From a virus: DNA of 34,519 bases. Positions 2-34,519 of this stretch are shown piece by piece. Where the stretch lies: positions 1-34,519 of the IMG/VR virus record IMGVR_UViG_3300025009_000284; one strand, 5' to 3'. The translations under genes were made by a program, and so were the position numbers. How positions within the stretch are numbered: the stretch's first letter is position 1; every line of letters starts with the position of its first letter. The notes under the pieces are model-generated. The model saw only the letters and a program-made list of their open reading frames with translations, had not been told where the DNA came from and made no database searches.

Positions 2-3000
2 AGCGAGGAAAGAGATGATGATGTATTCAAGAAGGAGATATTTGGAGAGGAAAAGGATTCCAATGTCATTCTTAATAAGATTGAGGATTACAGTAAGGAT
101 GAGTTAAAGGTATTCACCCAAGACTTGAACCAAGAAGAGTTCAGGAACTTGGCTCACAACTCCTATCTATTCAAATCAGGAGTAGGCCTAAGCCATGCCT
201 TGGCAGATCTTTACAGGGATAGCGTAGGAGCCAAGAAGATGTCTCAATTCAAGGTCGGAGATGTAGTAGAAGATATCTGGTGGAACAAAGAGAACGGCCA
301 GTACGGAGGCAGAAGAGAGATATTGGAAATGCCCAAACCAAATAAATCAGGAAAGGGAATAATAGCCGGTAAGGAAAAGGACTTGGAGACAGGAGAGATT
401 ACCGAGTTTGGTAAATACGGAGATGGAGACCAGAGATACATTCTCTCTCCCCAAGGAGTAGCCAAGCCCGAAAAGCAGTATAAGATCACTACATTCGATG
501 TAATACCTACCAGAGAAGGTGGAATATCCACAAGGATTACGGATGAAAGGATTGAGGGTACATTTTCTACTGAGAAGATTAAAGAGTTAGAAGAGGGAAA
601 CAATGAGTTCATCAAACAGTTTTCGGATAAAGAGATCCAACAGTACATAGATATGTATGAGGATAAGAAAACCTATTTTCCTAAGAACACCGAACACGAT
701 AAGGACATGAGAGATCACTACGACAGAATGATCACTGAGTATAAAATGGAACAGGATAGAAGAGCGGAGAGTATAATTAAGCCAAATGTTGAAACAACCG
801 ATCAAGATAGGGAAGGAGCTGATAGATCCGGACAACCAGCCGATATTGTACGAGAAGGCACAGAAGAACAAGCCGGAGCTGGTGAGGCAGTTGAAGTCAG
901 TGGCGGAGAAGTGGCACGAGGGGAATCTGAGGTCAGCGATACTGGCATTAGAGAGCGACTTACAGCACGGATAAGTGATTTTCCTACCGATTTATTGGAT
1001 AAGGCTGAACAAGACTGGCTTGACAACTATGTAGATATTTTTAATAAAGAGAGGAACAATAAACTCAAGGAGGACCTAGAGGGAGCTTTTGTAGCCAAAT
1101 GGCACAGAAAGTCGGTAGCTTATGATGTACCGGTCCAGAAAACAGCCAAGGACCAAGTGGCAATAAATAAACAGGTAGAAGATCTTATTGCCGAGAATAA
1201 AGAAACATACACCGAGACAGAGAAAGATATCCTAAGACAGTATTCAGGAGCCGGAGGGCTAGAGAAGGCCGGAGCAGAGGGCAGAGGGCTTTTAGATGAA
1301 TATTACACGCCTAAACCTATCGTAGACTTCATGTGGAAGAAGGTTAATGAAGTAACCAAGTTTGACGATAGATCGGCAGTTATGGAGCCTTCAGCCGGTA
1401 TCGGAGGTTTTTTGGCTAACGCTCCGAAGGAAGGAAACAAATTTGCTTTCGAAATCAACAAGACCTCCGCAGAAATAATTAGGATACTTTATCCCAATGT
1501 CAGCGTATTCAACCAACCATTTGAAGAGTTTTTTATGGACAGTAGAGGCAATAAGAAGCCATTATTGTTTAATGAAAAAAATCCGGGTTATTCTTTGGTA
1601 ATCGGCAATCCTCCCTATGGAGAACATCGTGGCCGGTATCTAGGACTAGGAGAAGAGCCAAAGATAGTTAAATACGAGGAATACTTTATGAAGAGAGGCA
1701 TGGACCTACTGAAAGAAGATGGTGTAATGGCCTATGTGGTCCCATCAGGATTCCTGAATAGTAGCTGGACCTATGCTAAAGAAGCTATGGGGGCGGAAGG
1801 ATATCTGGTCGATGCCTACCGTTTACCTAATGGTGTATTCGGAACAACATCAATCGGAACCGATGTTCTGATTTTCAAGAAACAATCTCTACCAAAGGAT
1901 GATACGAACACATCTCTTTACAGACTGGCCTTACAAAAGAGGCTGAGTGATATGAGTGATGGAAAGTTCTTTACCGACAATCCGGACAAGGTGTTGGGTG
2001 AGATATCCAAGGGTACCGGTAATTATGGAGCCGATGAAGTTAAGGGAACGCTGGAAAATGCCATACAAAGAGCAGAAGGGAAAGCTACCATTGTAAGAGA
2101 TGAGATACCGGAAGAAGTGGTCCAAGAGAACCAAAATGAGCAGAAAAAGGAAGTTGAGGAAATAAACGAGGCCGTTAAATCCCCTGTAGAGCCTCCGGCC
2201 AATAGGGTGCCTGTATCCAAGACCACCAATGAGATAAACAAAAAGGCTCAAATCGTGCCTAAGAAGAAGTACAAGACACAAAAACTAAGTGCTACGGTTA
2301 AGGCAGATGTCCCCATGTGGTCCTCCGTCAATGTTACCGGAGAGCTTAATAGTCTCTATACAGCTCAGTTCGATCCAAAGACTTTTGTGAATAAGGAAAT
2401 GGCGATCCAAGTTGAGGATGGAGTTGTCAGCTACTACCCGAACATCAACTACTACCAAGGCAATATCTATGAGAAGCTGGACAACCTTGAACTGATGAAG
2501 GACAAGATAAGTCCTGCTCAGTACGAGATTCAGAAGAAAGGACTTGAGGCTATATTACCGGAGAGACAATCACTCGCTGATACGAGACTTCAACCAATAG
2601 CCGATTTTGTAAAGAAGATAAAGCTGGATGATGGCAAGAGGCTCATAGATGGCTTCAGAGACTACCTGAGACCTCTACCTTGGGCCGCTTTCGGTGGCAG
2701 TTCCAGTTGGGAAATAGAGGGATATTTACAGGGAACAATCGTCAATACCGGAGATAAACAGCAGAATATAGAGGTCAGGAAGAGAAGAAGGGATGTCGGT
2801 AACAGTCTATTCAACCGATATTTGAGTACATCACTTACTCAAAAACAGAAGAGTGATATTGAAAATGAGTATAACCGAGCCTTCAATGCCTATTACCGGC
2901 CCGACTACAAGATGGTCCCACTCATAGGAGAAGTAAACGATACTTTCAATCCTAAAGGTAAACCCGGCTCACATCCACTCGAAGTCAAAGCGATTCAGAA

Positions 3001-6000
3001 AGAGGGTGCCGCTTTCTTGGCTACCAAAGGAGCCGGAGCCTTGGCTTATGATGTCGGTGTTGGTAAAACAATGACAGCCATAGTTGCTATCAATGAGGTG
3101 ATGGCAAGAGGATGGGTAAAGAAACCTCTTGTAGTGGTCCCAAATGGCACATACCAGAGTTGGGTGAACGAGATATCGGAGATCATACCGAATGTCAAAA
3201 TAAACAGCCTGATGAACCTTGGAGCCGCTTTCAAGGGAGATCTCAAGAGTTTGGAGATAGAAGATGGAACCCTATCCATCATTACCTATGACGGCTTAGT
3301 CAAGCTAGGCTTCAAAGATGAAACATATCAGGAACTTACCGGAGACCTCCGTGATGTCATGCTTGGCATGAATAACACCAAGAGAGGTGCCGAGAAGGAG
3401 GGAGCAGAGGTAGATAAACAGATAGGAAGAGCTATTAAGGGTACGAGCAACCAGAGATTCTTCGAGGACTTAGGCTTCGACCACATCACCATTGACGAGA
3501 CACACAACTTCAAGAACATCTTTGCCGGAGCCAAGCTGGATAAGGGTACCGGTAATGAGTTTAGGAATGTCAGAGGATCCAGTTCAGCCAGAGGTATCAA
3601 GGCGTATCTCATGGCTCAGTACATCCTCAAGAATAATAATAACCGGAATGTCTTTTTACTCTCAGCTACACCTTTCACCAACTCACCGCTAGAAATTTAC
3701 TCCATTATGTCTCTCATGGGTAAGAAGAGACTGGAACAGTTAGGACTAAAGAATGTCAATGATTTTATGTCCCTCTTCATGGAACTTAAACCCACCTTCC
3801 AAGTCAAAGCAGACCAGAGTGTCAAAGAGGAAGATGTTATCGAGGCTTTTCAGAACCTACAACAGCTACAAAAGATTGTTACCGAGTACATAGATTTCAG
3901 GACCGGAGAAGAAGCAGGAGTAGAAAGGCCGGGCCTCGTCAAAAAGACCATCACCATGTCCATGACACCGCTTCAGGTGGACTACACGACACAAGCACAG
4001 CCACTATTTGCCGACAAAAAGAATGGTGGAGCCATAGTAGCCATTACCGAACTTCAAAACATTACTCTTTCTCCATATCTATCCCGATTCCATCGTGGAG
4101 GGTACAACTACAAAGAGTTTGTTGAGAACTCACCCAAGATCAAGTACGCAGTTGAAGGAGCCAGTCTAACCCTCAAGGCCAATAAAGATGCCGGACAAGT
4201 TATCTATATGCCTCGTGGTGTAGATCGATTCCCCTTGGTAAAAGAATACCTGATTAAAGAAAAAGGCTTCAAGCCGGGAGAGATAGACCAGATAGTAGGA
4301 GGCATGAGCATAGATGCCAAGCAGAAGATAATGAATGACTTTAATTCCGGCAAGGTGAAGATCCTACTTGGTACTGAGGCTATTAAAGAGGGAGTGAACC
4401 TACAAGAGAGAGCTACCGACCTATACTTCCTACACTTACCTTGGAACCCGACAGATATGATTCAGGTCTCCGGAAGAATATGGAGACAGGGTAATATGTG
4501 GGCCAATGTCCGTGTTCACTACCCATTACTGGAAAACTCAGTTGATTCATTCATCTTCCAGAAGCTAGAGACCAAGGAGAAGCGTATCAAGAACCTGTGG
4601 AGCTACAAAGATAAAGTCATAAATGTAGGAGATTTGGATTTTGAAGGCATGAAGCTGGACCTTATCACCGATCCGGTAATCAGAGTGAACGCAGAGAAGA
4701 GCTTTATGGACAAGGTAGAGAGAAGCAAGCTGGAACAGTTGAAAGTGGAGAAGAGCTTTACCGAGACTAAGATATCGAAAATAGTCGAGGCAAAGGACAA
4801 TCTCAAGAACTATCAGGAAAGTCTGAAAGAGGCTGATGAAGATACCTCAGAGTATCGGTCCCAAAATACGATTGACTACTACACCAACAAGGTTAAGAAG
4901 GCTCAGGAGGAAGTAACCATGAGAACATCCGAGTTGGTTAATAAAGGAATAGATATCAAGGACCTTCAGAATAAGTCTGATGAGATGGGAGCAAAAGTAA
5001 AGGCTCAGGAGGATATAGTCAGCAATCTTGATGAAGTATTCAAGGCGAAACTGGAAGTAGCACAGACACAGAAGAACACACTTCAAGCCAAAGAGAATAA
5101 CTTTGCCGCTATCCTCAAACCGATTGTTGATGAAAACAGGACTTTCTTTGTGAAGAGAGCCGGTCAGGAAGCCGTCAGGAGTGCCGACAGCACCTACAAG
5201 ACACCCTCCGGTAACGCAGATATAGGCGGTTACAACTTAGATGTTGAGAGTGCCGAGAGAATGGTAGAGAACATCAAGGCAGTTGAGTTCCCTGAACTGC
5301 TACGCATGGTCCAAAGTCTTACCGGTGATACACCTACTCTTAAATCATTCAAGAGAGCCTTGGGCCGATTCTATGGTAAAGGAGAGGGAATCATCAAGAT
5401 GTCTCCGGAGATATTCAAGGATCCTAAACTTTCAGTAAGAGTATTTGCTCACGAGATAGGACACATGGCAGATTTCTTCCCCGACAAAACACTAGCCAGA
5501 GGGAACATGATCGGCAGGATACACAGCCTAAACAAGTTCCTGAAAGGACACTTCGGAGACAAAGAGGTTACTAACACGAATATCAGGAGTGAGCTTAAAG
5601 AATTGTCTCAGGAATGGAAGCCGTTTAATGAATTGGAGAACCCGAAGTTTACCGGATACCGCTATTCATCTAAAGAGCTTTACTCCGATGCCATATCTGT
5701 CCTGTTCAATGATCCGGCACTACTCAAGGAGAAAGCTCCTACCTTCTACAAAGCCTTCTTCGAAGCTCTCGATACTAAACCGGAGATACTTAAAGAGTTC
5801 AATGACACATGGAACTTAGTCAATGAGGGAGAAGAGGCGGTATTCAATGCCAGAAATGAGGCAATGGACAAGGCATACAAGACAGCAGAGGACAAATGGA
5901 CCGCTAAGACAGTTGAGAAGAAAGCCAGAAAGTTAAACCTGCTACACACTCTTCAGGTCCTATTCGATGATAGGAACGCACCACTTAATCGAAAGGTAAA

Positions 6001-9000
6001 TATTGCCAGAAAGAAAGGCTTACAGATAGACGATAGATTCAATCTCATATCGGAGTATGCCGGACTTAATTACCTTGACGGTAAGCTAAAGAACTTCGTC
6101 AATGACAACTTCACACCTGCCTATGATCTCATGAAAGAGGTAGACGGAGGATGGGAGACACTAGGTAAAGTATTACAGCTTGAAAGATCAGCCAATGAGA
6201 GAGGTGAGCTGGCTAATCCGGGTGGATATTCGCCGGCAACTGCCAATGAACAGCTAGAAGGATTGAAAGCACACACAGTTCCGGAAGATTGGGCCAAGGT
6301 AGAAAAAGCTCTTGGACTATTCCGCTCCGGTATGGAGGCGGTAGTAAAGATGGCGGAGGATGCCGGTTACTACACACCGCAAATGTTGGAGACCATGAAA
6401 GCCAATGAGACCTACGCTACCTTCCAAGTGATTGATTACCTTGATACCTACATCAGTTCAGCCATTCACAAGCAGGTAGGAACTCTCAAAGATGTGGCTA
6501 ATCCGGCAACTTCATCCATTATGAAGGCGATCTCTACCATGAAAGCCATAGAGTACAACAATGCCCGGACAATGGCGGTAGACTTCCATGCCGAGGCTTT
6601 TGCCGATGAACTCACACCGGCTAAGAAGTATCACGATGGTAAGAGATGGCAGATTTTAGATCCAAAGGAGCCGACACAGGGCTTAGTAACCATAATAAGG
6701 AACGGTAAGCCGGAGGGTTATTACATGGAGAAGGAGACAGCCGATACCATAAATAGAACGAATGATAAGACAATCATGTTGGCCGCCAAGCTCTCACAGA
6801 AGCTTACCGCTTCCAAAGTATATCGACCTCTATTTGTCAGCCTGAACTTAGGATTCCAGTCATTCAATGCGGTCCGAGACTTCATGAGGTACTGGAAGAA
6901 CATACCGGATAGGTCTCTGAAAGACGCTATCACCTCATTCCCAAGAGCCTTATACCGCTACAAACAGGCTTCAGGACACGCATGGAACAGAGTAACCAGC
7001 AAACCGGATGCGATTATTAAAGCGATGGAGAACTCCAAGATACTTGGACAAACCTACAATGACACCTTTGGTGATGAAGTAGATCCGGAAGAGAAACAGA
7101 TAGAGAGAGTGATGAATAAGGCAGGAGTAACGGTCAAGGCCAAGAAGAGAGGTTTACTGTCTCCGGTATATATGCTCCTTGATGGAATCGAATTGTTAGG
7201 AAACTACATAGAATCTCTACCCAAGGTGGCAGGATACTTGGAACTTAGGGAGATCATGCCGGAAAAAGAACTGGCACAGTTTATCAGGACAAGAATAGGC
7301 TCTCCGGACTTCCTCACAAGAGGTACATTTACACCGGTAAGTAACAACATCTTCCTTTTCAGTAACGCTATCAAGGAGGGTATGAAAACGGATTACCAGT
7401 CAGCAACAGATCCAAAGACAAGAGGTGGCTTCTGGTGGAAAACAATAATAGCCAATGTACTACCCAAGGTAATCCTGATGGCTATTGGAGCAGGATTATT
7501 CGGTGATTGGTGGAAGAAGAGGCATGATGATATGTCCGAGTACGATAAGACAAACTACAACCCTCTGGTCCTTGGAGTGGATATAAACGGCAAGACTATT
7601 TACCTGAGATTACCGCAAGACGAGACCGGCAGATTTATCGGTGGCCTATTCTACAAACTGGCTACGATGGGTGGAGAGAATGGACTGGATATAACGGACC
7701 TGTTCGATGTATTCTCCTACGGAGCAGGACAAATGCCCAACCTATCCCCTGCCATTACCGGTACTTCAGCTATCCTCTCCTACATGAGTGGTCAGAATCC
7801 CTATGACGAGTTCAGGCACCGCAACATAATACCGGATGCGGCTTTCAAAGCCGGTCCCAAGTATTCATTCCCAATCTTCATGGACTGGCTCATTAAGAAT
7901 CAGGGAGCAGGAGTGATAATGCCAAGCTACACACCGGAGGGAGATCTAACCAATTTGGAGAAACTACTTAATCTTCCGGTAATATCCAACATCTTAGGCA
8001 GATGGGTGAAAGTATCCGATTATGGACAGAGTGAGACCTTGAAGGAAATATCTACACAAGCCGATAAAGAAGCCGCACAGAAAACACTAGAAAACCGTCA
8101 GGCAGTCAATGACGCTATCAAGGTATACAAATCCGGTCCAATGACGGCAGAGAGCCGTATAGAGGCGGAGAAGGCCATGATTAAAGAAAGGCTAGGAGAA
8201 GGCCCATACGACAGTAAGGAGAGAGAATCGGCCAATCGCCTGATCAGTCAATTCAAGGTAGGACTTATCAAAGGTAACGCAGATGCCAATACAGATGCGA
8301 TCATCTATGCCAATACCAATGCCGAGAAGGTCAAGATACTCCAACACATCAAGACAGGAATGGAAGAGGCGGAGTTCAAAGACTTTGTAAACGGCCTACA
8401 CGATAATAAACTCATAAGTGATGAGGTCATTATTGAACTCAAAAAGGCGATACCGGAGACAACTAAACAGGAGAGCCTGTTAAACTTCAAGTTGGTTAAG
8501 GAGGCTTATGCCGCAGAAGATTTGGTTGGAACATACAAGAGCATGACTTGGAGTAAAGATATCCGCACAGGATGGGAGAGATTCTTAGGTGGTGTTCAAG
8601 CCCTGATTCCCGGAGAACAAGCACAGGAGAATCCGATAGAGGGTATTACTGAGAAGCAACTGGTCCAGAGTGATAAGGAAGGGTACTGGAGAGCCATGAC
8701 ATACCTGAAAGCAAAAGAGCCGGGCTGGTACTTCTACAATGTTGGTGAAAAGGTGGAAGAGAGAATATTGGGAGGAAAGCTGAGTGATCCAAAGATAAAG
8801 GAGAAGTTTGGGAGGATAAGTCCATTACCGGAGGTCGCACCTGAGAAAGTTGAAGCTATTACAGCTCCCAAAGAAGAGCCAACAGAAACACCCTCAGTCA
8901 AAAGAGAGGGGAGAGTAACACAGCCAGCCAAGGGTACGCCTCCTATTAAGAATCCCGATAAAGAGATAACCCTACCAAGTGGAGAAAAGGCAACAGTCTA

Positions 9001-9460
9001 CGCCACTCCTTACGATGATTACCTCGATGCTACATTTGGAGACAAGGCAGATGAAGCTAGAAGAGTGCTAAACAATGACGGTTCGTTTGGTGAGAATCCC
9101 TCCTACAATCCCGGCAAGGGTTTTGTGAATCCTGATGGATCGGAGCAGGATATTAACTATGTAGAAGGTCATTGGGGAGAAAAAGGATATGAGAAATATG
9201 TTTCCTCAGTTACCGGAGCCAAGGTTGATAAATCGGATCCTAACGCAGTTGTCAGCAGAGACATGGGACTGATGAGGATAAACAATGGCACTTACTATGA
9301 TTTTATGAATAGAACTAATCGCCGGAAACAGATGGAAGAGATTGGAATAACCAGTATCGAGGACCTGTATGATCCGGAGAAGAATATCAAGGTGGCTAAA
9401 ATCAACTATGACGAGGGTGGATGGGGAAGATGGTATGCGGCACCGGATGACTTAAAATAA
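2..9460 (+). CDS. Giant polyvalent virion-type protein (methyltransferase, helicase, metallopeptidase, lysozyme-like), 5'-truncated
   Basis: The frame is open to the left edge, so the N-terminus is missing; 3152 residues are visible. In order (residues counted from base 2): an N6-adenine methyltransferase with motif I EPSAGIGGF near 462 and NPPYG at 536; an SF2/SNF2-like helicase with GVGKT near 1019, DETH near 1165, SATP near 1221 and a QVSGRIWRQG motif VI near 1488; a coiled coil; a zinc metallopeptidase motif HEIGH at 1817; a long helical region; a hydrophobic segment encoded near 7440-7510; and a lysozyme/transglycosylase-like end with GLMRIN near 3089, with a candidate catalytic Glu in GENPSYNP encoded near 9090. 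This set matches phage polyvalent proteins, which are thought to be injected with DNA to counter restriction and breach the wall. Domain calls rest on visible motifs; activity is inferred. A start at TTG 125 is unlikely because the reading frame is equally protein-like upstream. Confidence 0.88.
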   Translation, partial: SEERDDDVFKKEIFGEEKDSNVILNKIEDYSKDELKVFTQDLNQEEFRNLAHNSYLFKSGVGLSHALADLYRDSVGAKKMSQFKVGDVVEDIWWNKENGQYGGRREILEMPKPNKSGKGIIAGKEKDLETGEITEFGKYGDGDQRYILSPQGVAKPEKQYKITTFDVIPTREGGISTRITDERIEGTFSTEKIKELEEGNNEFIKQFSDKEIQQYIDMYEDKKTYFPKNTEHDKDMRDHYDRMITEYKMEQDRRAESIIKPNVETTDQDREGADRSGQPADIVREGTEEQAGAGEAVEVSGGEVARGESEVSDTGIRERLTARISDFPTDLLDKAEQDWLDNYVDIFNKERNNKLKEDLEGAFVAKWHRKSVAYDVPVQKTAKDQVAINKQVEDLIAENKETYTETEKDILRQYSGAGGLEKAGAEGRGLLDEYYTPKPIVDFMWKKVNEVTKFDDRSAVMEPSAGIGGFLANAPKEGNKFAFEINKTSAEIIRILYPNVSVFNQPFEEFFMDSRGNKKPLLFNEKNPGYSLVIGNPPYGEHRGRYLGLGEEPKIVKYEEYFMKRGMDLLKEDGVMAYVVPSGFLNSSWTYAKEAMGAEGYLVDAYRLPNGVFGTTSIGTDVLIFKKQSLPKDDTNTSLYRLALQKRLSDMSDGKFFTDNPDKVLGEISKGTGNYGADEVKGTLENAIQRAEGKATIVRDEIPEEVVQENQNEQKKEVEEINEAVKSPVEPPANRVPVSKTTNEINKKAQIVPKKKYKTQKLSATVKADVPMWSSVNVTGELNSLYTAQFDPKTFVNKEMAIQVEDGVVSYYPNINYYQGNIYEKLDNLELMKDKISPAQYEIQKKGLEAILPERQSLADTRLQPIADFVKKIKLDDGKRLIDGFRDYLRPLPWAAFGGSSSWEIEGYLQGTIVNTGDKQQNIEVRKRRRDVGNSLFNRYLSTSLTQKQKSDIENEYNRAFNAYYRPDYKMVPLIGEVNDTFNPKGKPGSHPLEVKAIQKEGAAFLATKGAGALAYDVGVGKTMTAIVAINEVMARGWVKKPLVVVPNGTYQSWVNEISEIIPNVKINSLMNLGAAFKGDLKSLEIEDGTLSIITYDGLVKLGFKDETYQELTGDLRDVMLGMNNTKRGAEKEGAEVDKQIGRAIKGTSNQRFFEDLGFDHITIDETHNFKNIFAGAKLDKGTGNEFRNVRGSSSARGIKAYLMAQYILKNNNNRNVFLLSATPFTNSPLEIYSIMSLMGKKRLEQLGLKNVNDFMSLFMELKPTFQVKADQSVKEEDVIEAFQNLQQLQKIVTEYIDFRTGEEAGVERPGLVKKTITMSMTPLQVDYTTQAQPLFADKKNGGAIVAITELQNITLSPYLSRFHRGGYNYKEFVENSPKIKYAVEGASLTLKANKDAGQVIYMPRGVDRFPLVKEYLIKEKGFKPGEIDQIVGGMSIDAKQKIMNDFNSGKVKILLGTEAIKEGVNLQERATDLYFLHLPWNPTDMIQVSGRIWRQGNMWANVRVHYPLLENSVDSFIFQKLETKEKRIKNLWSYKDKVINVGDLDFEGMKLDLITDPVIRVNAEKSFMDKVERSKLEQLKVEKSFTETKISKIVEAKDNLKNYQESLKEADEDTSEYRSQNTIDYYTNKVKKAQEEVTMRTSELVNKGIDIKDLQNKSDEMGAKVKAQEDIVSNLDEVFKAKLEVAQTQKNTLQAKENNFAAILKPIVDENRTFFVKRAGQEAVRSADSTYKTPSGNADIGGYNLDVESAERMVENIKAVEFPELLRMVQSLTGDTPTLKSFKRALGRFYGKGEGIIKMSPEIFKDPKLSVRVFAHEIGHMADFFPDKTLARGNMIGRIHSLNKFLKGHFGDKEVTNTNIRSELKELSQEWKPFNELENPKFTGYRYSSKELYSDAISVLFNDPALLKEKAPTFYKAFFEALDTKPEILKEFNDTWNLVNEGEEAVFNARNEAMDKAYKTAEDKWTAKTVEKKARKLNLLHTLQVLFDDRNAPLNRKVNIARKKGLQIDDRFNLISEYAGLNYLDGKLKNFVNDNFTPAYDLMKEVDGGWETLGKVLQLERSANERGELANPGGYSPATANEQLEGLKAHTVPEDWAKVEKALGLFRSGMEAVVKMAEDAGYYTPQMLETMKANETYATFQVIDYLDTYISSAIHKQVGTLKDVANPATSSIMKAISTMKAIEYNNARTMAVDFHAEAFADELTPAKKYHDGKRWQILDPKEPTQGLVTIIRNGKPEGYYMEKETADTINRTNDKTIMLAAKLSQKLTASKVYRPLFVSLNLGFQSFNAVRDFMRYWKNIPDRSLKDAITSFPRALYRYKQASGHAWNRVTSKPDAIIKAMENSKILGQTYNDTFGDEVDPEEKQIERVMNKAGVTVKAKKRGLLSPVYMLLDGIELLGNYIESLPKVAGYLELREIMPEKELAQFIRTRIGSPDFLTRGTFTPVSNNIFLFSNAIKEGMKTDYQSATDPKTRGGFWWKTIIANVLPKVILMAIGAGLFGDWWKKRHDDMSEYDKTNYNPLVLGVDINGKTIYLRLPQDETGRFIGGLFYKLATMGGENGLDITDLFDVFSYGAGQMPNLSPAITGTSAILSYMSGQNPYDEFRHRNIIPDAAFKAGPKYSFPIFMDWLIKNQGAGVIMPSYTPEGDLTNLEKLLNLPVISNILGRWVKVSDYGQSETLKEISTQADKEAAQKTLENRQAVNDAIKVYKSGPMTAESRIEAEKAMIKERLGEGPYDSKERESANRLISQFKVGLIKGNADANTDAIIYANTNAEKVKILQHIKTGMEEAEFKDFVNGLHDNKLISDEVIIELKKAIPETTKQESLLNFKLVKEAYAAEDLVGTYKSMTWSKDIRTGWERFLGGVQALIPGEQAQENPIEGITEKQLVQSDKEGYWRAMTYLKAKEPGWYFYNVGEKVEERILGGKLSDPKIKEKFGRISPLPEVAPEKVEAITAPKEEPTETPSVKREGRVTQPAKGTPPIKNPDKEITLPSGEKATVYATPYDDYLDATFGDKADEARRVLNNDGSFGENPSYNPGKGFVNPDGSEQDINYVEGHWGEKGYEKYVSSVTGAKVDKSDPNAVVSRDMGLMRINNGTYYDFMNRTNRRKQMEEIGITSIEDLYDPEKNIKVAKINYDEGGWGRWYAAPDDLK

Positions 9461-9479: not shown

Positions 9480-10208
9480 ATGAGATTTCCGGTAGGAAGT
9501 ACAGGAACTAAAGAAGAATTTGAGAGAGATTGGTATGATGCTCAACCGTTTGGTAGTCAGACGAGTTATGGCTGGCATGAGGGTGCGGATATCAATAAGA
9601 GGACTGGAGGCGATACAGACATAAACCAAGAGCTTAAAGCTATTGCTCCGGGAAGATTGGTCTATTACCACTATCTCACTCATCCCACATCAGGATTCGG
9701 TAGACACTTGGTATATAAGATCAATGGTCCTTGGGGAAGCAGATGGGTGATGTACTCACACATGAGCGAGCTTGATTTCTTAAAGGGTGAACAGGATGTC
9801 AATGAAGGACAGATAGTGGGAAGAATAGGAAAATCCGGAACACCGGTAGCTCATCTTCATTGGTCCATTTACAAAGAGGATCCGGTAGGGTTTGGAATAG
9901 ACAATATAGCCAATAACTTTGATGAGTTGAATCGCTTATGGGAGGATCCGGTCCAGTTTGTGAATACATGGATAGTTGCTCCTGTACCAGTCCCATCACC
10001 GGATATCAGGCTTATTCTATTGGACCAAGCCGGTATTACAGATGAGGGTAAGACTAGAGAAGCCATTGAGAGATACAACAAATGGAATCAGATGATAAAT
10101 GACTTGGACAATACCAGAAACGAGTTGAACACACTCAAAACACAATATGGTAGTTTGAAGAGCAGAATTAGAACCTCGGTCAATACCGCTATCGACCAAA
10201 CCAATTAA
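9480..10208 (+). CDS. M23-family (LytM-like) peptidase, probable endolysin or virion wall hydrolase
   Basis: The 242-residue protein carries the zinc-site pattern of M23 endopeptidases: H33 and D37 in HEGAD, H94 in MYSHM, and H125/H127 in AHLHW. These enzymes cut peptide cross-bridges in peptidoglycan. No signal peptide is visible, so export would depend on a holin or on packaging in the virion. The C-terminal 60 or so residues form a helical, Asn-rich extension. It lies directly after the giant protein, whose own C-terminus looks like a glycan-cutting lysozyme domain, so the two could cleave different wall bonds. The start at 9480 is the first ATG of the frame after the upstream stop. Confidence 0.85.
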   Translation: MRFPVGSTGTKEEFERDWYDAQPFGSQTSYGWHEGADINKRTGGDTDINQELKAIAPGRLVYYHYLTHPTSGFGRHLVYKINGPWGSRWVMYSHMSELDFLKGEQDVNEGQIVGRIGKSGTPVAHLHWSIYKEDPVGFGIDNIANNFDELNRLWEDPVQFVNTWIVAPVPVPSPDIRLILLDQAGITDEGKTREAIERYNKWNQMINDLDNTRNELNTLKTQYGSLKSRIRTSVNTAIDQTN

Positions 10209-16977: not shown

Positions 16978-18066
16978 ATGGAAAGATTGATAACAAAAAT
17001 AACCTCCGAGGACCTGAAATCCATCCCTGAGCTGAAAAGGCTGGTTCCTGATGAGGATTTTGTTGGATTAATCAAGGAATCAATGGCCGGTGAGCTATTC
17101 GGTCAGGATGAGGCTCTAACTGCTCTTGCCCGATGTGTAGCCCGACACGAAACAGGACTCTCAGATCCCTCCAGACCACTATCTGTACTATTCTTCTTAG
17201 GACCGACAGGCGTAGGCAAGACTGAAGCTTCCTATGCCTTAGCAGACTTCCTATTCATGGGCAAGAAACAGCCTAAAATAATCAATTGTGCCGAGTTACA
17301 AGATCAGACATCTATTACGAGATTTGTTGGTGCCAGTCCTAACTATGTTGGGTATGGTGATCCTACGATCATTACTCCGAATGATTTAATTGGAAGAAGC
17401 ATAATCGTTTTTGACGAGATTGAGAAAGCCCATCCGGATATATGGAAGCTCCTACTTGGAGTAATGGATACCGGTAAATTGATAGTTAGGGCAGGAAGTA
17501 GATATGGAGCAGAGGAGATAGACCTAGATTTCACCAGCTCATACATCATCTTTACCTCAAATGTAGGAGCTAAGGAGGTCAATAAGAAAAGGGGTAAGTT
17601 GGGATTCATCAAGGAGGAAGAGAAGCAGTCCGGTAATCCAGCGATGGGAGCAGTCCTTGAGAAGTTCTCCAATATCCCTGAGTTCTTAGGTAGGATGGAT
17701 GAGTTTATCGTTTTCAAGCACCTAGACGCAGAATGCTACAAGAAGATAATGTGGAAGTTTATTGCCAGGAAGAATATGGACAACTCTTGTAGGGTAAAGG
17801 GATTCCCATTCTTGACGGTCAGTAGCGAGCTGGCGGATTATCTAACCGACCTGTCGGTAGGTAAGGGTAGCTTTGGAGCCAGAGATATGAAGCATACCCT
17901 AGATGCTACCCTATTCCACTCCCTATCCAATGTAATAGGTAAAGCACCATTGGGATCCTGTGTTGTAGGAGACTTGGAGAACGGAAAAATCATCTTCTAT
18001 GTGCTTGAGCCACCGGTCCCTCAGTTACCAGAAGTCATCCCCCCGGATGAGCCACAAATAGAATGA
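16978..18066 (+). CDS. AAA+ ATPase resembling the second (D2) module of ClpB/ClpA unfoldases
   Basis: The 362-residue protein has Walker A GPTGVGKT (75-82), a pore-loop-like NYVGYGD (122-128) that keeps the aromatic residue used to grip substrate, Walker B IIVFDEIEKAH (142-152), sensor 1 FTSNVGA (192-198), the arginine finger in FLGRMDE (R239) and a sensor-2 type GARDMK in the C-terminal domain. This is one complete Clp-type ring module without the N-domain or first ATPase domain of ClpB. The C-terminus is a Pro/Glu-rich tail. It could unfold or remodel proteins in replication or assembly, or act with a host protease; no tripeptide loop for ClpP docking is evident. It ends in an ATGA overlap with a Cys-rich gene. 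Confidence 0.85.
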   Translation: MERLITKITSEDLKSIPELKRLVPDEDFVGLIKESMAGELFGQDEALTALARCVARHETGLSDPSRPLSVLFFLGPTGVGKTEASYALADFLFMGKKQPKIINCAELQDQTSITRFVGASPNYVGYGDPTIITPNDLIGRSIIVFDEIEKAHPDIWKLLLGVMDTGKLIVRAGSRYGAEEIDLDFTSSYIIFTSNVGAKEVNKKRGKLGFIKEEEKQSGNPAMGAVLEKFSNIPEFLGRMDEFIVFKHLDAECYKKIMWKFIARKNMDNSCRVKGFPFLTVSSELADYLTDLSVGKGSFGARDMKHTLDATLFHSLSNVIGKAPLGSCVVGDLENGKIIFYVLEPPVPQLPEVIPPDEPQIE

Positions 18067-18257
18067 AGGAATGTCTTGGGTGTCTCATTAAGTGCTACAC
18101 CAAAGACGAACAAAACGGAGATTGTTTCACGCTTACCTTTGAGGAAATGGCCGCCATGTTTAAGAATCCAAGTGAAGAGTTGCTGGACCATTTATTGTTG
18201 TTGGAGGGTAAGAGCCGGGAAGATCAGTTAAAGGCTATCGGTAGCATCCTTCTTTGA
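18063..18257 (+). CDS. Small Cys-rich protein coupled to the AAA+ gene
   Basis: The product has 64 residues. The N-terminus reads MKECLGCLIKC and a further Cys follows about 10 residues later (GDCFT), a possible four-cysteine metal site; the rest is helical (LLDHLLLLEGK). It overlaps the AAA+ stop by four bases, so it is probably co-translated and may be an adaptor for the ATPase. Its last 30 bases overlap the convergent minus-strand membrane gene. Function is otherwise unknown. Confidence 0.6.
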   Translation: MKECLGCLIKCYTKDEQNGDCFTLTFEEMAAMFKNPSEELLDHLLLLEGKSREDQLKAIGSILL

Positions 18258-19513: not shown

Positions 19514-20020
19514 ATGGCTAACCAAAGGCAAATAATCGCAGTTAAAATATTATCGGAAGTTATCAGAAAATCGAAAGGTCAGAAGGGCGTAACGATGGGA
19601 AAGATACTGAGGGAAGCTGGATATTCAGAAAGTACAGCAGAATCACCATCACAAGTAACAGAAAGTAAGGGCTTTAGGGAAATGTTTGATATATTGATAC
19701 CTGATTCTAAGTTGGCAGAGAAGCATGATGAACTCCTAAACGCAGTTGAGATAGACAGTTACCGGATGGATGCCAAGTTGAGTGATGAAGAGATTGAGAA
19801 GATGGTGGAGGCAACCAAAGGATTCAAAGTCCGGAAGATATTAAGGACCAAGGGAGAGCCGACAGTTCTGGTGTATTTTTGGAGACCGGACAATATGGCA
19901 ATAGATCGAGCCTTGGACAAGGGATACAAGATAAAAGGACACTATGCCGCAGAGAAGCAGGAGATAGAGGGGACTATTACCACCGTCAATGTAGTCAAAT
20001 ATGGAGCCAAAAAGGAGTGA
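19514..20020 (+). CDS. terS: Terminase small subunit
   Basis: The 168-residue protein has the small-terminase pattern GKILREAGYSESTAESPSQVTESKGF near 32-57, with an N-terminal helix-turn-helix-like region that would bind the packaging site. The LIPDSKLAEKHDELLNAVEI stretch that usually follows is also present. The C-terminal part ends in a basic tip. It overlaps the large subunit start by 20 bases. The leader is A-rich without a Shine-Dalgarno. Confidence 0.85.
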   Translation: MANQRQIIAVKILSEVIRKSKGQKGVTMGKILREAGYSESTAESPSQVTESKGFREMFDILIPDSKLAEKHDELLNAVEIDSYRMDAKLSDEEIEKMVEATKGFKVRKILRTKGEPTVLVYFWRPDNMAIDRALDKGYKIKGHYAAEKQEIEGTITTVNVVKYGAKKE

Positions 20021-21326
20021 GATCACCTTACCTTATCAGTTCGAACCAAGAGAATATCAATTACCGGTAGTTGAGGCTTTAGATAATGGATTCAAGAGAG
20101 CGGTATGGGTAGCACACAGGCGTTCCGGTAAGGACAAGACCATGATTAACTTCGTGGCAAAGTCCATGTATGAAAGGGTAGGTGCCTATTATTATGTGTT
20201 CCCGACCTACAAACAGGCCAAGAAGGTTATCTGGAACGGAATGGACCGGAGTGGATTCAAGTTCACAGATCACTTCCCAAAGGAACTAAGACGGCGTACC
20301 GATAATGGGGAGATGCTGATCGAGACAAAGAACAACTCTATATTCCAGTTGATAGGATCAGACCATATTGATTCACTCATGGGAGCCAACCCTGTTGGTG
20401 TTGTTTTTAGTGAGTGGTCCCTTCAGAATCCGGCGGCATGGGATTATCTTCGACCTATCCTAGCCGAGAATGGCGGTTGGGCCGCTTTCATCTACACTCC
20501 TAGAGGAAAGAATCATGGCTGGACCACTCTACAAACTGCCAGAGCCTTTCCGGATCAATGGTATTCACTTGTCTCAACGGTAGAAGATACCAAGGCTATC
20601 CCTTGGGATGTACTGGCACAGGAGCGAGAAGAAATACTCAGGAAGGATCCATCAGGTGCCTTATATGAGCAGGAGTATATGTGTTCATTCGAAGTACCAA
20701 TTCAAGGTTCTTACTATGGTAATCAAATGTTGGATGCGGACAAGGAGGGAAGAATCACCGATGTTCCCTACGATATGAATACTTTTGTGAATACGGCATG
20801 GGATTTAGGTATGGATGATTCAATGACGATCTGGTTCTATCAGGTGGCAGGTAGTGAATATCACCTGATCGATTATATGACCGGCTCCGGAGAGGGAATA
20901 AACTACTACATCTCAGAGTTGAATAAGAAACCCTACATTTACGGAGATCATTACGCACCTCACGATATTAGCGTCAGGGAATTGGGTACCGGCAAGAGCC
21001 GCCTAGAGGTCGCTAAAAGCCTTGGGATAGATTTCAAGGTAGTTCCAATGATGCCGGTGGAGGATGGCGTACAGGCGGTAAGGAACATCCTGAATAGGTG
21101 TTGGTTTGATAAGACAGCTTGTGAGAAGGGAATTGACTGTCTTATGAGCTATCACAAAGAATGGGATGACGATAATCAGGTGTTCAAGTCTCACCCGGAA
21201 CATGATTGGGCCTCACACGGAGCAGATTCTTTCCGGTACTTCGCAGTATCTCAGAGGGATATAATTAATTCCGGACAGGGAAATACAATTACGGCAAAGC
21301 ACAATGACGATCCATATGATAGATAA
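20001..21326 (+). CDS. terL: Terminase large subunit (packaging ATPase-nuclease)
   Basis: The protein has 441 residues. The ATPase half has a Walker A-like AHRRSGKDKT (38-47), a Walker B VGVVFSEW (132-139, with S in place of the usual D before the catalytic E138) and a coupling motif FIYTPRG (163-169). The nuclease half has AWDLGMDD (D268), GDHYAPHD around 315-322 and a final HDWASHGADSFRY, the expected acidic residues of the RNase H-like fold. It cuts and pumps DNA into the prohead through the portal. It starts inside the small-subunit gene. Confidence 0.93.
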   Translation: MEPKRSEITLPYQFEPREYQLPVVEALDNGFKRAVWVAHRRSGKDKTMINFVAKSMYERVGAYYYVFPTYKQAKKVIWNGMDRSGFKFTDHFPKELRRRTDNGEMLIETKNNSIFQLIGSDHIDSLMGANPVGVVFSEWSLQNPAAWDYLRPILAENGGWAAFIYTPRGKNHGWTTLQTARAFPDQWYSLVSTVEDTKAIPWDVLAQEREEILRKDPSGALYEQEYMCSFEVPIQGSYYGNQMLDADKEGRITDVPYDMNTFVNTAWDLGMDDSMTIWFYQVAGSEYHLIDYMTGSGEGINYYISELNKKPYIYGDHYAPHDISVRELGTGKSRLEVAKSLGIDFKVVPMMPVEDGVQAVRNILNRCWFDKTACEKGIDCLMSYHKEWDDDNQVFKSHPEHDWASHGADSFRYFAVSQRDIINSGQGNTITAKHNDDPYDR

Positions 21327-21891: not shown

Positions 21892-23940
21892 ATGCCTAAA
21901 CAAAAAAAATATATAGAAACGGTAGATAGTTCTTACAACAAGGAGATCGTCAAGGATTCCAAGGAAGTATCTGATGAGAAGCAGGAAGAATACTCCGATG
22001 ATGGTACAAAGGGTGTTTACAAAGAAGTTGATCTTGAAGGTTTAGTGTCTCAGGTCCAGCATGAATACGATCTGGCATATAAGCACCAGAAACCGAAGAA
22101 AGATGAATTAGCGGTCCGGTTAAAGCTACTCAATAATCAGAAGAGGGAAAAGGGAGCGGTGGGTGATACGACCATGTTCAGTATCTTTCAAACTGTTCTA
22201 GCCTCACTATATGCCGATAGGCTCATTGTGGACTTCAGAGGTAAAGAAGATGGAGATGAGGACACGGCAGATAACCTAAATGCTTTAGCCAAGGCTGATT
22301 ATGATGACATGGAGAAGGATATTATTGATTACAATTGGGATTGGGATACGCTATTTTGTGGTCGTGGTTTGATTCTAATGGAAGAGTTCATCAGGGATAA
22401 CGATAACAACATCTTTATTCCTCTACCGGAGAACATTGATTTTACTTCGTGGTTGAGAGATCCGGCGGCAAAGTCGGTCAATGGAGACCGTTCCGGTAAG
22501 GGTGCCATGAGGTTTGGAGGCAGGGAGATTAAAGTTAGCAAGGATGAGATGGAGAAGCACCCATCATTCATCAAGAACATCAAGTTTGACGAGATTAAAT
22601 ATGGATCGAGTACCTATTCTTTACTGGAAGATGCCAGAGTTGCCAGAGACAACGCACAGAACAATCAGAGTACCAACAAGGATAGTGAAGCCAATTTGGG
22701 AGTGAATGCCGAGTACGCCATAACAGAATGGTTCACCCATGCCAAGGTAGGTGATGAGGTGAAGAAGGTAAAGGTATGGCTTGCCAATGAAAGAACTAAG
22801 GTAGTCGGTCTCAAGGTCCTGAAGAGAGACTACTGGCCTATTCTTGATAGAGCCTTATACCAAAACAGTAATGATTGGGATGGTACCTCCATTCCGGATC
22901 TTACTGAAGATAAGCAGAGAGCTAGAGCGGTAGCACAGAACTTGGGCATGAGAGCCATGAAAGCCGACCTAGAACCCATGTACATCTACGACACCAACAA
23001 GATCAACAATAAATCGGACCTTGATTTTGACTTCAACAAGTTTGTAGGCATAGACGCTAAGCCCGGAGAATCGGTAAGCAACTCAATCTCACCTCTCAAT
23101 AAGGCTAATCCTAATCTGGCACTACTTCAATTCATCTATGAATCCATTGATATATCAGCTCAGAAAGCCGCCGCAGTACCGGATATCAAGATGGGTATTC
23201 AATCGGAGCAGGATAGACCTCTTGGAGAAACAAACCTAATTTCAAGTAATGTTGATACGAGATTCTCTCTATCAGCCAAGGTATTTGGTTGGTCCGAGAA
23301 AAGATTTTGGGGAATCCATTGGTACAATATGTACAAGGATAATTTCGATGATGAAATTGATGAGAAGGTGGTCAGAGTTGTGGGTGCTTTCGGTGCTAAG
23401 TGGAGACCACTCACCAAGTCGGAGATCATTTGTAGACTAGATCCGGATGTATATATCGAATCAACGGTAGTCAGTAGAGCCAAGGATTTAGAGGACCGGC
23501 AGTTACTTACTCCCTTCTACACTCTCGCCTTATCAGAACCGACAGCCAATCGCAGGTATATTTGGAAGGATTGGGCAAGAGTGAGTGGTATGACTAAGGA
23601 CAAGATTGACCGGTTATTCCCTCCAACGGTAGATGAGCGTATTGCCGAACAGCAGAATGATTTATTGAATCAGGACAAGACGGCACCGGTGTTACCGGAA
23701 GATGACCATATGGTTCACTTGGAGATTCACGCTATGGCAAAAGAGACAGATGCTTCAAAGGCCCATATCAAAACTCACATAGAGGCTTTAAGTATCAAGA
23801 AAACCAGACCTGAGCTATTCCCGGTAGATCAGACACAAACTGATATGAATTCTGAAGGACAGCAGAAGGAAATGATGCCCGGAATAAAGGCTCAACCCAT
23901 GAGACCTATCACTCCTAGCATGACTAGCGGACAAAGATGA
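21892..23940 (+). CDS. Portal protein (probable)
   Basis: The product has 682 residues and lies between terminase and scaffold/capsid, the position and size of podovirus-type portals. The N-terminal 45 residues are a charged extension. The core has long helices and a stretch around WDTLFCGRGLILMEEFIR typical of portal clip and wing regions. The C-terminal 80 residues are Gln/Met/Pro-rich and flexible. No catalytic motif is present. The call rests mainly on synteny, length and overall character. It ends in an ATGA overlap with the next gene. Confidence 0.75.
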   Translation: MPKQKKYIETVDSSYNKEIVKDSKEVSDEKQEEYSDDGTKGVYKEVDLEGLVSQVQHEYDLAYKHQKPKKDELAVRLKLLNNQKREKGAVGDTTMFSIFQTVLASLYADRLIVDFRGKEDGDEDTADNLNALAKADYDDMEKDIIDYNWDWDTLFCGRGLILMEEFIRDNDNNIFIPLPENIDFTSWLRDPAAKSVNGDRSGKGAMRFGGREIKVSKDEMEKHPSFIKNIKFDEIKYGSSTYSLLEDARVARDNAQNNQSTNKDSEANLGVNAEYAITEWFTHAKVGDEVKKVKVWLANERTKVVGLKVLKRDYWPILDRALYQNSNDWDGTSIPDLTEDKQRARAVAQNLGMRAMKADLEPMYIYDTNKINNKSDLDFDFNKFVGIDAKPGESVSNSISPLNKANPNLALLQFIYESIDISAQKAAAVPDIKMGIQSEQDRPLGETNLISSNVDTRFSLSAKVFGWSEKRFWGIHWYNMYKDNFDDEIDEKVVRVVGAFGAKWRPLTKSEIICRLDPDVYIESTVVSRAKDLEDRQLLTPFYTLALSEPTANRRYIWKDWARVSGMTKDKIDRLFPPTVDERIAEQQNDLLNQDKTAPVLPEDDHMVHLEIHAMAKETDASKAHIKTHIEALSIKKTRPELFPVDQTQTDMNSEGQQKEMMPGIKAQPMRPITPSMTSGQR

Positions 23941-25610: not shown

Positions 25611-26579
25611 ATGGCTAACACAACCAGAACAGAGATCCCGGTGGAGGTTAATAATTTTTACGACAAGGTTTTGCTAGATAGAGCAATGCCCTCTTTCGTA
25701 TTCAATCGCTTCGCTCAAGTCAGGGATATACCTGCCAACAACGGTACCAATGTTATCAAGTTCCGCAGATACGGTAATTTAACCGCTCAAACCACCGCTC
25801 TTTCAGAGGGTGTTACTCCGGCAGGTTCACAACTTAGCGTTACTGATGTAACCGCTACGGTCCTCCAATACGGTGATTACATTACCCTTACCGACAAAGT
25901 CCTTGTCGAGACCTTTGATCCAATCCTTACCGAAACAGCCGAGATCTTGGGAGACCAAGCCGGTGATTCTTTGGACCAACTCGCAAGAGATGTCATAGTC
26001 GCAGGTACGACCATTCAATACGCTTCAACCGCTACTCAAAATAGCGAAGTCTCTTCAGCCATGAAGTTGAACCGTGATGAAGTCAAGCAAGCCGTCAGAA
26101 CCCTTCGTGGTAACAACGCTAAACCTGTTACTTCCATGATTGATCCTAATACCGGATACAACACAGTCCCGGTTGGTCGTTCATTCATCGGAATAGTTGA
26201 TGAAGATTCAGCTTTTGATCTTGATGATGCTACCGGCTGGATTCCAGTTGAGAAGTATCCTTCAAAATCCGGTGTTATGCCTGATGAAATTGGAGCTTTA
26301 TCAAATGTCCGCTTCTTACTTTCTACCAATGGTTATGTAAACTCAGGAGTAGGAGCCGGAAGTGTTGATGTTCACTACACTCCCATCTTCGGACAAAATG
26401 CTTTTGCTCAAACCAGAATCTCCGGTAAAGCCTTACAGAACATTGTTAAGCCTCTAGGCTCCGCAGGAACCGCAGATCCATTGAATCAGAGAAGCACATC
26501 CGGTTGGGTAGCATGGTATGTAGCTAAGATTCTCAATCAGGGATTCGTAGTTATTGTTAGACACGGTGTATCCGCTTAA
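25611..26579 (+). CDS. Major capsid protein, N4-gp56-like family
   Basis: The 322-residue protein has the pattern of the N4-gp56 family: an N-terminal YDKVLLDRAMPSFVFNRFAQ helix, then KFRRYGNL, LSEGVTP and DYITLTDKV strands of the HK97-type fold, and a conserved region around FIGIVDEDS. It builds the icosahedral shell. It has no Shine-Dalgarno; an A-rich leader precedes the ATG. It follows its own promoter and hairpin, as expected for the most highly expressed gene. Codon choice shifts towards ACC, GCT, CTT and TTC compared with the AGA/GAG-rich left half, as in strongly expressed genes. Confidence 0.9.
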   Translation: MANTTRTEIPVEVNNFYDKVLLDRAMPSFVFNRFAQVRDIPANNGTNVIKFRRYGNLTAQTTALSEGVTPAGSQLSVTDVTATVLQYGDYITLTDKVLVETFDPILTETAEILGDQAGDSLDQLARDVIVAGTTIQYASTATQNSEVSSAMKLNRDEVKQAVRTLRGNNAKPVTSMIDPNTGYNTVPVGRSFIGIVDEDSAFDLDDATGWIPVEKYPSKSGVMPDEIGALSNVRFLLSTNGYVNSGVGAGSVDVHYTPIFGQNAFAQTRISGKALQNIVKPLGSAGTADPLNQRSTSGWVAWYVAKILNQGFVVIVRHGVSA

Positions 26580-32179: not shown

Positions 32180-33613
32180 ATGGCAACACCGATATTAATA
32201 GGAAATTTTAATCAAGGAGGATTGTCTGATTCTAGGTGGTCTGGAACAAAAGATTCATTCTTCAAACTAACAGGACTAGACCCTCACTCCACTCCCGGAC
32301 TACTCAAGGTTGCTCAGAAGCTCACCAAGATCTCTTCAACGACAGTTACTGCCTTCTGTAAAGAATCGGTAGTCTCATCTAACGGCAAGGTCTATTGGTT
32401 CTCATATACAGACGGCAAGATATGGCAACAGGATCCGTCTGATAACTCATTCACCCTCATCTTCACCACAACGGCGGCCGCAGGCGGTGTAGGCTGTCTT
32501 GGTGCCTTCGAGTATCAAGGATATATCTATTGGGCAACTGAGTCTCGACTTCATAGAATCCTAGCTTCCGGTAATGATACAGGAGCAGAGTGGACCAGTA
32601 ATACCGCTCTTAATTGGGCCACCTTCACTAATACTGATGCTCTCTTTCATCCCATGTTCGAGGTCAATCAGGTTTTATATATAGGAGATGGAAAATATGT
32701 CTCTCAAGTAGATGCCGGAACCTTCACCGCTAACGCCTTAGATATTAAGACACCTCTCAGGGTAAAGTCTCTAGGCAAGATAAACACAGATCTTCTGGTA
32801 GGTACTTGGGTCTCCGATACCATCACTCAAACAGAACTAATTAGATGGAACACCTACTCAGTCTCCTTCTCTACAAGCGATACTATTCCTGAGACCGGCA
32901 TCAACGCCTTCATACCGGCTGATAATTTTGTCTTGGTCCAAGCAGGACTCGCCGGAAACCTCTACACCTACGATGGATCGGTCCTAAACCTGTACAAAAC
33001 AATCCCCGGAGACTACTCACCGACCAAGTATGGCTATGTACATCCCTCATCTGTAGGCAACTTAAACGGCCAACTCCTATTCGGTATGAGTAATGGTACC
33101 GGCAACCCTTGTGATCTAGGTGTTTATAGATTAGCTAGGCACGATATAAAGTACCCTTTCATCATGGACTTCCCTTACCCTATCTCAGAGCGGTCCAGTA
33201 GTGCTTTGGTAACGACAGGGATTGAGATAGGTGCGATAGCGGTCTCTGGATTCAATGTCTACATTGCTTGGAAGAATGGCACGACTTACGGTGTAGACAA
33301 GCTCGATTACTCAAATAAGCTCGATGGAGCGTATTTCGAGACTCGTGTAATGGCCCTAAATCGGGAGATGCTGTCGACAATGGATAACTTCAACCTGAAC
33401 TATTACCAGATCCCGGCCAGTTGTGAGATCAACCTAGCCTATGACAAGAACTACGCCGGTTATGTGAATATGACAGAAGTAAAAGATACGGACCGTTTAA
33501 CTGTTTCATCAGAAGAAGGAGTCGAGGCTTCAGCATTATCAGTTAAAGCCACATTTACAACTTCCAGCAACGATGCTCCGAGTGTAGAGAATGGTTTTGT
33601 TTCTCTAATATGA
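32180..33613 (+). CDS. Large tail structural protein, propeller-like
   Basis: The 477-residue protein shows repeated short strand patterns with aromatic and Gly residues (GKVYWFSYTDGKIWQQD, GYIYWATESRLHRI, NLYTYDGSVLNLY, GVYRLARHD), which suggests a beta-propeller-like fold. Nozzle proteins of podovirus tails contain such folds, but the similarity is only in general character. It ends in an ATGA overlap with the next gene. It has no catalytic motif. Confidence 0.6.
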   Translation: MATPILIGNFNQGGLSDSRWSGTKDSFFKLTGLDPHSTPGLLKVAQKLTKISSTTVTAFCKESVVSSNGKVYWFSYTDGKIWQQDPSDNSFTLIFTTTAAAGGVGCLGAFEYQGYIYWATESRLHRILASGNDTGAEWTSNTALNWATFTNTDALFHPMFEVNQVLYIGDGKYVSQVDAGTFTANALDIKTPLRVKSLGKINTDLLVGTWVSDTITQTELIRWNTYSVSFSTSDTIPETGINAFIPADNFVLVQAGLAGNLYTYDGSVLNLYKTIPGDYSPTKYGYVHPSSVGNLNGQLLFGMSNGTGNPCDLGVYRLARHDIKYPFIMDFPYPISERSSSALVTTGIEIGAIAVSGFNVYIAWKNGTTYGVDKLDYSNKLDGAYFETRVMALNREMLSTMDNFNLNYYQIPASCEINLAYDKNYAGYVNMTEVKDTDRLTVSSEEGVEASALSVKATFTTSSNDAPSVENGFVSLI

Positions 33614-34161
33614 CAGTAAACCCATTCAATGATGTTCAGGATGTACCCATCTTGGGAGCCGTCAATAGCGGTGCTGATCTGCTGACCAATGTTAATGCTC
33701 TTAGGGTTGGTACCGGAGCGAGGACTTTCAAGGCAGACGAATCAGGTATATGGCTAGGAGGCAATACATGGGCCTCAGCTCCTTTCAGAGTAGATATGTC
33801 CGGAAATGTTACCGCTACTTCAGCCTCATTCCCCAATTTAGTAACTCTTACCGTATTCCGGCAAAATGCGGTCCCTACTTCTACGGCAATAGGAGATATC
33901 TGGTTTGATGAGGACAACAATAACAAGATGTATAGGGCAGAAATGGTAGGAGCCGATGCTATATCAGCCGGAGAGTGGGAGCTGGTATCTGATACCGGAA
34001 CTCAGGAGGCAATATTGAAGGCAGTATCAGGACAGACAGTTACCGGTAGTTTTAGTCTCGGAGTTTCGAATGTGTTGATTGATGGAGCAAACAAGAGAAT
34101 CATTATTAATGATGGAACAAATGATCGTATATTGATCGGATATGGTTCAGGTTTATTTTAA
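33610..34161 (+). CDS. Fibre-type structural protein
   Basis: The product has 183 residues. The stretch FKADESGIWLGGNTWASAPFRVDMSGNVTA is of a kind often found in phage fibre or tail-tip proteins, and the final part (VLIDGANKRIIINDGTNDRILIG) repeats short IIINDGTN-type strands as in fibre shafts. It overlaps the previous stop by four bases. The last gene of the window follows after five bases. Function is inferred from sequence character. Confidence 0.6.
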   Translation: MTVNPFNDVQDVPILGAVNSGADLLTNVNALRVGTGARTFKADESGIWLGGNTWASAPFRVDMSGNVTATSASFPNLVTLTVFRQNAVPTSTAIGDIWFDEDNNNKMYRAEMVGADAISAGEWELVSDTGTQEAILKAVSGQTVTGSFSLGVSNVLIDGANKRIIINDGTNDRILIGYGSGLF

Positions 34162-34166
34162 TAAAT

Positions 34167-34519
34167 ATGGCAGAAGATTATGGTCTTAAAATATCTGTCG
34201 AAGGAGTAAGTGTCTTATCGGCTACTGACCTACAAACTGCCTTCAAAAACGATTCCTCTCTTCTTAAAGTGGTCCAGAGCGGTACCGGTACATTTGGTGT
34301 TACAGGAATAGTAACCGTTACTCACAACCTTGGATATGTACCTCAGTTCTTGGTTTTTCAAGAGGTGTCATACGATTTTGGAAATGGTGATGTATCCATA
34401 GTTGCCACCGGAGATGTCTACGATCAAGCCATTGCCGGAGCCGATACTACCACCTTGAAACTCTTAGGTAACAATGGAAAATCTTACCAGTATTATATTT
34501 TTTATGAGAGCGTAGATGG
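34167..34519 (+). CDS. Fibre or tail-tip protein, cut by the right edge
   Basis: The frame from ATG 34167 (MAEDYGLKISVEGVSVL) stays open to the end of the window, 117 codons. It contains TVTHNLGYVPQFLVF, the HNLGYxP strand-turn that recurs in phage tail-tip and fibre proteins. The C-terminus lies outside. It probably belongs to the same late transcript as the preceding genes. Confidence 0.7.
   Translation, partial: MAEDYGLKISVEGVSVLSATDLQTAFKNDSSLLKVVQSGTGTFGVTGIVTVTHNLGYVPQFLVFQEVSYDFGNGDVSIVATGDVYDQAIAGADTTTLKLLGNNGKSYQYYIFYESVD

Follow-up and report, generated by a model that had tools for sequence, protein, structure and literature searches.

The window analysed here is a linear viral contig of 34,519 bases (IMG/VR record IMGVR_UViG_3300025009_000284, positions 1 to 34,519). 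Its genes for a large terminase (20001..21326, +), an SU10/P22-like portal protein (21892..23940, +) and a major capsid protein (25611..26579, +) mark the phage as tailed, with a portal of podovirus type, and late structural or tail-region genes occupy the right edge (32180..34517, +). At the left edge lies a giant frame (2..9460, +) of 3152 residues plus a stop, the 5′ end of which is off the window. Directly after it comes an M23-type peptidase gene (9480..10208, +; Pfam Peptidase_M23, 1.3e-9), the product of which is a probable lysis or wall enzyme.

The giant frame has no internal stop and runs off the left edge, as the preliminary description, which put it at no fewer than 3152 residues, had maintained. 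Over this region the other five frames stay open for at most 142 codons, and 200 shuffles gave a longest open run of 150 codons. Both main modules of the protein also share one frame in full-length relatives on contigs L006 (3440 aa), L008 (3555 aa) and L067 (3381 aa) and in a partial protein on L014 (2974 aa); because these close homologues come from independent contigs, an assembly accident does not explain the frame. The incomplete N-terminal region (residues 1-376; 2..1129, +) gave no match under E 0.1 in the family search, and only its last ~120 residues, starting at residue 260, align with the L006 protein. Since residue 260 pairs with L006 residue 833, we estimate that ~570 residues (~1.7 kb) lie beyond the left edge. 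As judged from its sequence, the giant falls into two parts that can be separated: residues ~377-1580 form a DarB-like methylase-helicase module, and residues 1735-2814 a peptidase/helical chassis. The linker between them (residues 1581-1734; 4742..5203, +), defined by position only, is a possible site of proteolytic release.

The first module opens with an LPD36-type leader and a gamma-class N6-adenine methyltransferase (1130..2071, +), recognized by Pfam and by the motifs YSGAGG (LPD36-type; residue 414, base 1241), YYTP (residue 434), VMEPSAGIGGF (methyltransferase motif I; residue 460, base 1379) and NPPY (residue 536, base 1607). It continues with a SWI2/SNF2-type SF2 translocase (2954..4741, +) in which every diagnostic motif is present and in order, Walker A, DExH, SAT, motif V and motif VI being represented by GVGKT (residue 1019), DETH (residue 1165), LSATPF (residue 1220), EGVNLQ (residue 1463) and GRIWRQG (residue 1491), respectively. 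Pfam matches on the giant include Eco57I (4.7e-9), SNF2 (1.8e-11) and Helicase_C (6e-15). The polyvalent methylase-helicase dyad has been described as an LPD36 GXG(G/A/S), a TP and an NPP(Y/F) MTase followed by a SWI2/SNF2 ATPase (Iyer et al. 2017, PMC5512222); here GXGG, TP, NPPY and the SNF2/Helicase_C motifs occur in that order. They are kept in L006, L008, L067, L014 and the protein of Leptospira phage LE1, with small variations in the helicase motifs such as DEVQN in L006. The LE1 protein, a 'putative methylase' of 1971 aa, is the best phage-record match to this half of the giant (30.5% identity to residues 332-1559 over 1390 columns, E 3e-164), and the same half retrieves P1 DarB and many DarB-like giants in database searches. 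Short peptide patterns taken from it gave zero matches in the viral contigs because such patterns reach close relatives only; the relatives discussed here came through chassis alignment. NCBIfam matches such as DISARM DrmD fell far below their own cut-offs and merely reflect the helicase.

The second module begins with a zincin metallopeptidase domain (5285..5806, +), supported by a conserved motif and by a structural model. The HEIGH motif starts at residue 1817 (bases 5450-5464) and the third zinc ligand is E1892 (bases 5675-5677). Phage-type polyvalent MPTases have a HEXXH, an Asp three residues downstream and a later Glu ligand (PMC5512222), and the giant has H1817, E1818, H1821, D1824 and E1892 at these positions. 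In an alignment of 50-51 relatives E1892 is invariant and the other zincin positions are nearly so. We modelled residues 1735-2814 from an alignment of relatives that left out the row for the Pelagibacter phage EXVC032P Baldr, and obtained a mean pLDDT of 80.5. In VIA-align, zincin domains matched the first ~200 residues of this predicted structure over 138 residues at Z values reaching 7.8; the score is middling and consistent with the HEXXH motif. The remainder forms a helical C-terminal chassis (5807..8443, +), LPD38-like by predicted structure, with one strong hydrophobic helix (residues 2482-2500; 7445-7501, +). Four elements of the preliminary description thus stand: the N6-adenine methyltransferase and complete SF2 helicase by Pfam and motifs, the HEIGH metallopeptidase by its near-invariant residues and fold match, and the membrane segment by this single helix.

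Structure matches of the model in BFVD to phage giants named LPD38 had E-values of 1e-17 to 1e-14 over at least 900 columns, with moderate TM-scores of 0.4-0.5. Pfam LPD38 (PF18857) itself gave no match, a sequence-profile comparison of the last 480 residues was weak, and sequence searches of Pfam, PHROGs, NCBIfam and PDB left the chassis unnamed. Foldseek of the model against PDB returned nothing under 0.001, and VIA-align matched zincin domains only, with no T7 or P22 ejection protein among the matches listed. In hhalign, region 242-765 of the chassis profile matched the C-terminal region of BcepIL02 gp70 with 97% probability and E 5.7e-11, against E 0.23 for a control with the sequence reversed. 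BLAST detected no homology of the chassis to known DarB-like giants, so profile or structure comparison is needed to see the likeness.

Beyond the chassis the giant carries a tail of 338 residues (residues 2815-3152; 8444..9457, +), and within it an SLT-like stretch (about 9236-9397, +). The Pfam SLT match has E = 0.019 on the whole giant and 3.4e-4 on the tail alone, where its 20.6 bits lie below the Pfam cut-off of 21.3; a single-sequence fold of the tail was uninformative (pLDDT 37). All chassis relatives fetched lack this tail, their proteins stopping at the chassis or at most ~100 residues past it. A search with the SLT tail found none in the viral contigs, and phage records gave E 0.4 at best. 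Of the lysozyme-like end proposed earlier, then, an SLT-like signal stands, a weak one that falls short of the Pfam threshold, and we consider the tail a putative transglycosylase, probable but unproven, and an addition particular to the window phage. The same sub-threshold score, and the lack of a wall domain at that place in any fetched chassis relative, make a C-terminal wall domain a poor argument for presence in the virion, for which it had been used. With the M23-type gene adjoining the SLT-like tail, two wall enzymes would stand side by side.

The ~1080-residue chassis (1735-2814) aligns with C-terminal parts of giants encoded on other viral contigs. A profile scan with it found 79 other viral loci, two of which sit on contigs L002 and L003, and one search of bacterial genomes found eight; E-values in all three comparisons apply to candidate stretches only. 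As all eight bacterial loci are on metagenome-assembled genomes, no host can be assigned. In most chassis loci the front half differs: Pfam identified SNF2/Helicase_C, RadC, DnaJ, MutS-I, ART, PBECR3, GGDEF, Zeta toxin and ParB among 35 non-redundant fronts, as well as one clear SLT. Given such varied fronts, the window giant joins a DarB cassette to a chassis which serves other cargo too. The order methylase, helicase, peptidase, chassis is retained in L006, L008, L067 and L014 at 35-57% chassis identity.

The pair L007 and L008 is a natural comparison of the giant with and without the cassette. Their flanking DNA is 94-95% identical, and L008 has an in-frame insert of ~3.8 kb (~1270 residues) encoding a methylase-helicase immediately before the chassis, which L007 is without; a ~190-residue stretch of L007 near the insert site is missing in L008. 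What sets the two apart is the methylase-helicase cassette, gained or lost cleanly and in frame, and near-identical phages with and without it show, in their sequences at least, that the enzyme cassette is swappable in and out. Across the 29 rows of a chassis tree the cassette is patchy and requires at least 3 changes; together with the gain or loss in this pair, that is as expected for optional anti-host cargo. We give about even credence to a broader proposal, that across a small-podovirus clade the conserved chassis is a general delivery vehicle with effectors exchanged in frame upstream, in the style of polymorphic-toxin tips, and that L007 and L008 record a recent exchange of an anti-restriction cassette. 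A short AAAG match was seen at the cassette junctions of this pair.

Gene order places the giant among late genes. In Baldr, tail tubular A and B come before the giant gene and a putative tail fibre gene comes after it, and the order of an ejection-protein gene, after tail genes in a late operon, is found in Baldr, L006, L009, L010 and L007. The junction of tail genes and giant gene in the window itself lies off the edge, the order being known from these relatives. In L009 and L010 homologues of the window's right-edge genes precede the giant, from which at least one gene separates them; in L009, homologues of the genes at 32180..34517 are ~3 kb upstream. From this order, the most probable arrangement is that the two ends of the window flank a gap made up of ~1.7 kb of the 5′ part of the gene and a few kb upstream.

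Polyvalent proteins, the dyad and its peptidase and lysozyme partners have already been described (Iyer et al. 2017, PMC5512222), and the giant, with at least two disparate enzymatic domains on one large polypeptide in a phage context, belongs to this known class, as had been supposed. Its closest counterparts in overall design are giants of Bcep22-like podoviruses. JC1 gp69 (4515 aa), for which MS of the virion gave 51 unique peptides (PMC9144972), and CSP3 orf43, with transglycosylase, helicase and methylase in one protein (PMC10269572), resemble it in joining an adenine methylase and an SNF2 helicase in one podovirus protein, together with a lytic transglycosylase to which the SLT-like stretch of the window would be the putative counterpart, and BcepIL02 gp70 has the C-terminal region homologous to the window chassis. 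In JC1 gp69, CSP3 orf43 and BcepIL02 gp70, however, the transglycosylase is N-terminal (JC1 residues 80-192), whereas the SLT-like stretch of the window is C-terminal; JC1 gp69 further contains LPD3 and LPD38, the latter without a Pfam match in the window chassis. The preliminary description had left open whether this exact domain order was on record: the set of transglycosylase, methylase, helicase and LPD38 is published for JC1 gp69, with the transglycosylase at the other end, and among open-licence papers we found no described case that places an SLT C-terminally, behind peptidase and chassis. The window giant is a further member of this known design, with a permuted putative wall domain.

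Other known proteins resemble one half each. P1 DarB has the LPD36-MTase-SNF2 dyad, sits in the P1 virion and counters the type I enzymes EcoK/EcoB (PMC9024508); unlike the window giant it has a mass of 251 kDa and acts together with five other Dar proteins, and no comparable peptidase or chassis is described in the literature examined. Its capsid signal is N-terminal (PMC9024508), and the N-terminus of the window giant is beyond the edge. The LE1 protein stops ~200 residues past the helicase and has no chassis match. Conversely, the 2329-aa Baldr protein (EXVC031PHodr_020) is a chassis homologue (22%, a weak alignment) with a different N-terminal half and no methylase-helicase match. The N4 virion RNA polymerase is an injected giant, with a C-terminal zincin and a second domain needed for encapsidation (PMC5512222); its cargo is an RNA polymerase, and the likeness is drawn from its description.

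Taken together, we think it likely that the giant is a virion protein of the ejection type from a small podovirus-like phage, in which a peptidase/helical chassis is preceded by a fused DarB-like cassette against restriction. The anti-restriction part of this reading rests on the homology of the methylase-helicase half to the LE1 protein and to P1 DarB, itself virion-borne and active against restriction. The ejection part rests on the position of the giant after tail genes in syntenic relatives, on the match of the chassis to BcepIL02 gp70 and on the presence in the virion of gp69, its JC1 counterpart; the chassis half probably belongs to a protein that small tailed phages inject. Intact catalytic motifs throughout, and a cassette that was gained or lost in a ~95% identical pair of phages, support the combination. 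For the window phage we infer packaging, injection, proteolytic release and anti-restriction activity as follows. The giant would be packed in the particle through the chassis and/or the N-terminus and would enter the cell with the phage DNA or just ahead of it, the SLT-like end and membrane helix helping to open a path across wall and membrane. Next, the HEXXH peptidase would cut the polypeptide and free the methylase-helicase, whose helicase may track along the duplex as it comes in, with the methylase marking or masking adenines so that the DNA escapes cutting by type I-like restriction enzymes.

Late-gene position also fits late expression, and methylation can guard progeny DNA beforehand, so a giant made late might methylate replicated DNA in the producing cell before packaging and stay uninjected, its chassis only localising it to assembling heads. 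Known DarB proteins are virion components, however, and neither a peptidase nor a membrane-helix chassis is needed for that role; we regard this account as unlikely. Quite improbable, in our judgement, is that the chassis ejects a methylase-helicase with some other early job, on host or rival DNA, in nucleoid remodelling or in pulling in DNA: the pair is specifically of the DarB kind, even if a chassis that also bears RadC, MutS-I, DnaJ, ART and GGDEF need not carry anti-restriction cargo. A decaying or accidental fusion, in which a stop was lost between an ejection protein and its neighbours and some modules are functionless, would suit the weakly scoring SLT-like tail found in no relative, but is highly improbable with motifs intact and module order kept at 35-57% chassis identity.

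What is known of polyvalent giants comes largely from computation, and the ejected DarB-like giant proposed here belongs to related phages that share a delivery end and differ in their fronts. We found no description among open-licence papers of a chassis family with changing cargo or of the L007/L008 pair. With that ~95% identical pair, what a phage gains from a DarB cassette can be tested directly, and the common chassis could serve in the study of a natural protein delivery module.

Elsewhere in the window, an AAA_2 (Clp-type) ATPase gene (16978-18066) matches phrog_4871, a phage family named ATP-dependent protease, and a lone minus-strand ORF amid plus-strand genes (18228-18614, -) encodes a small hydrophobic, membrane-like product.
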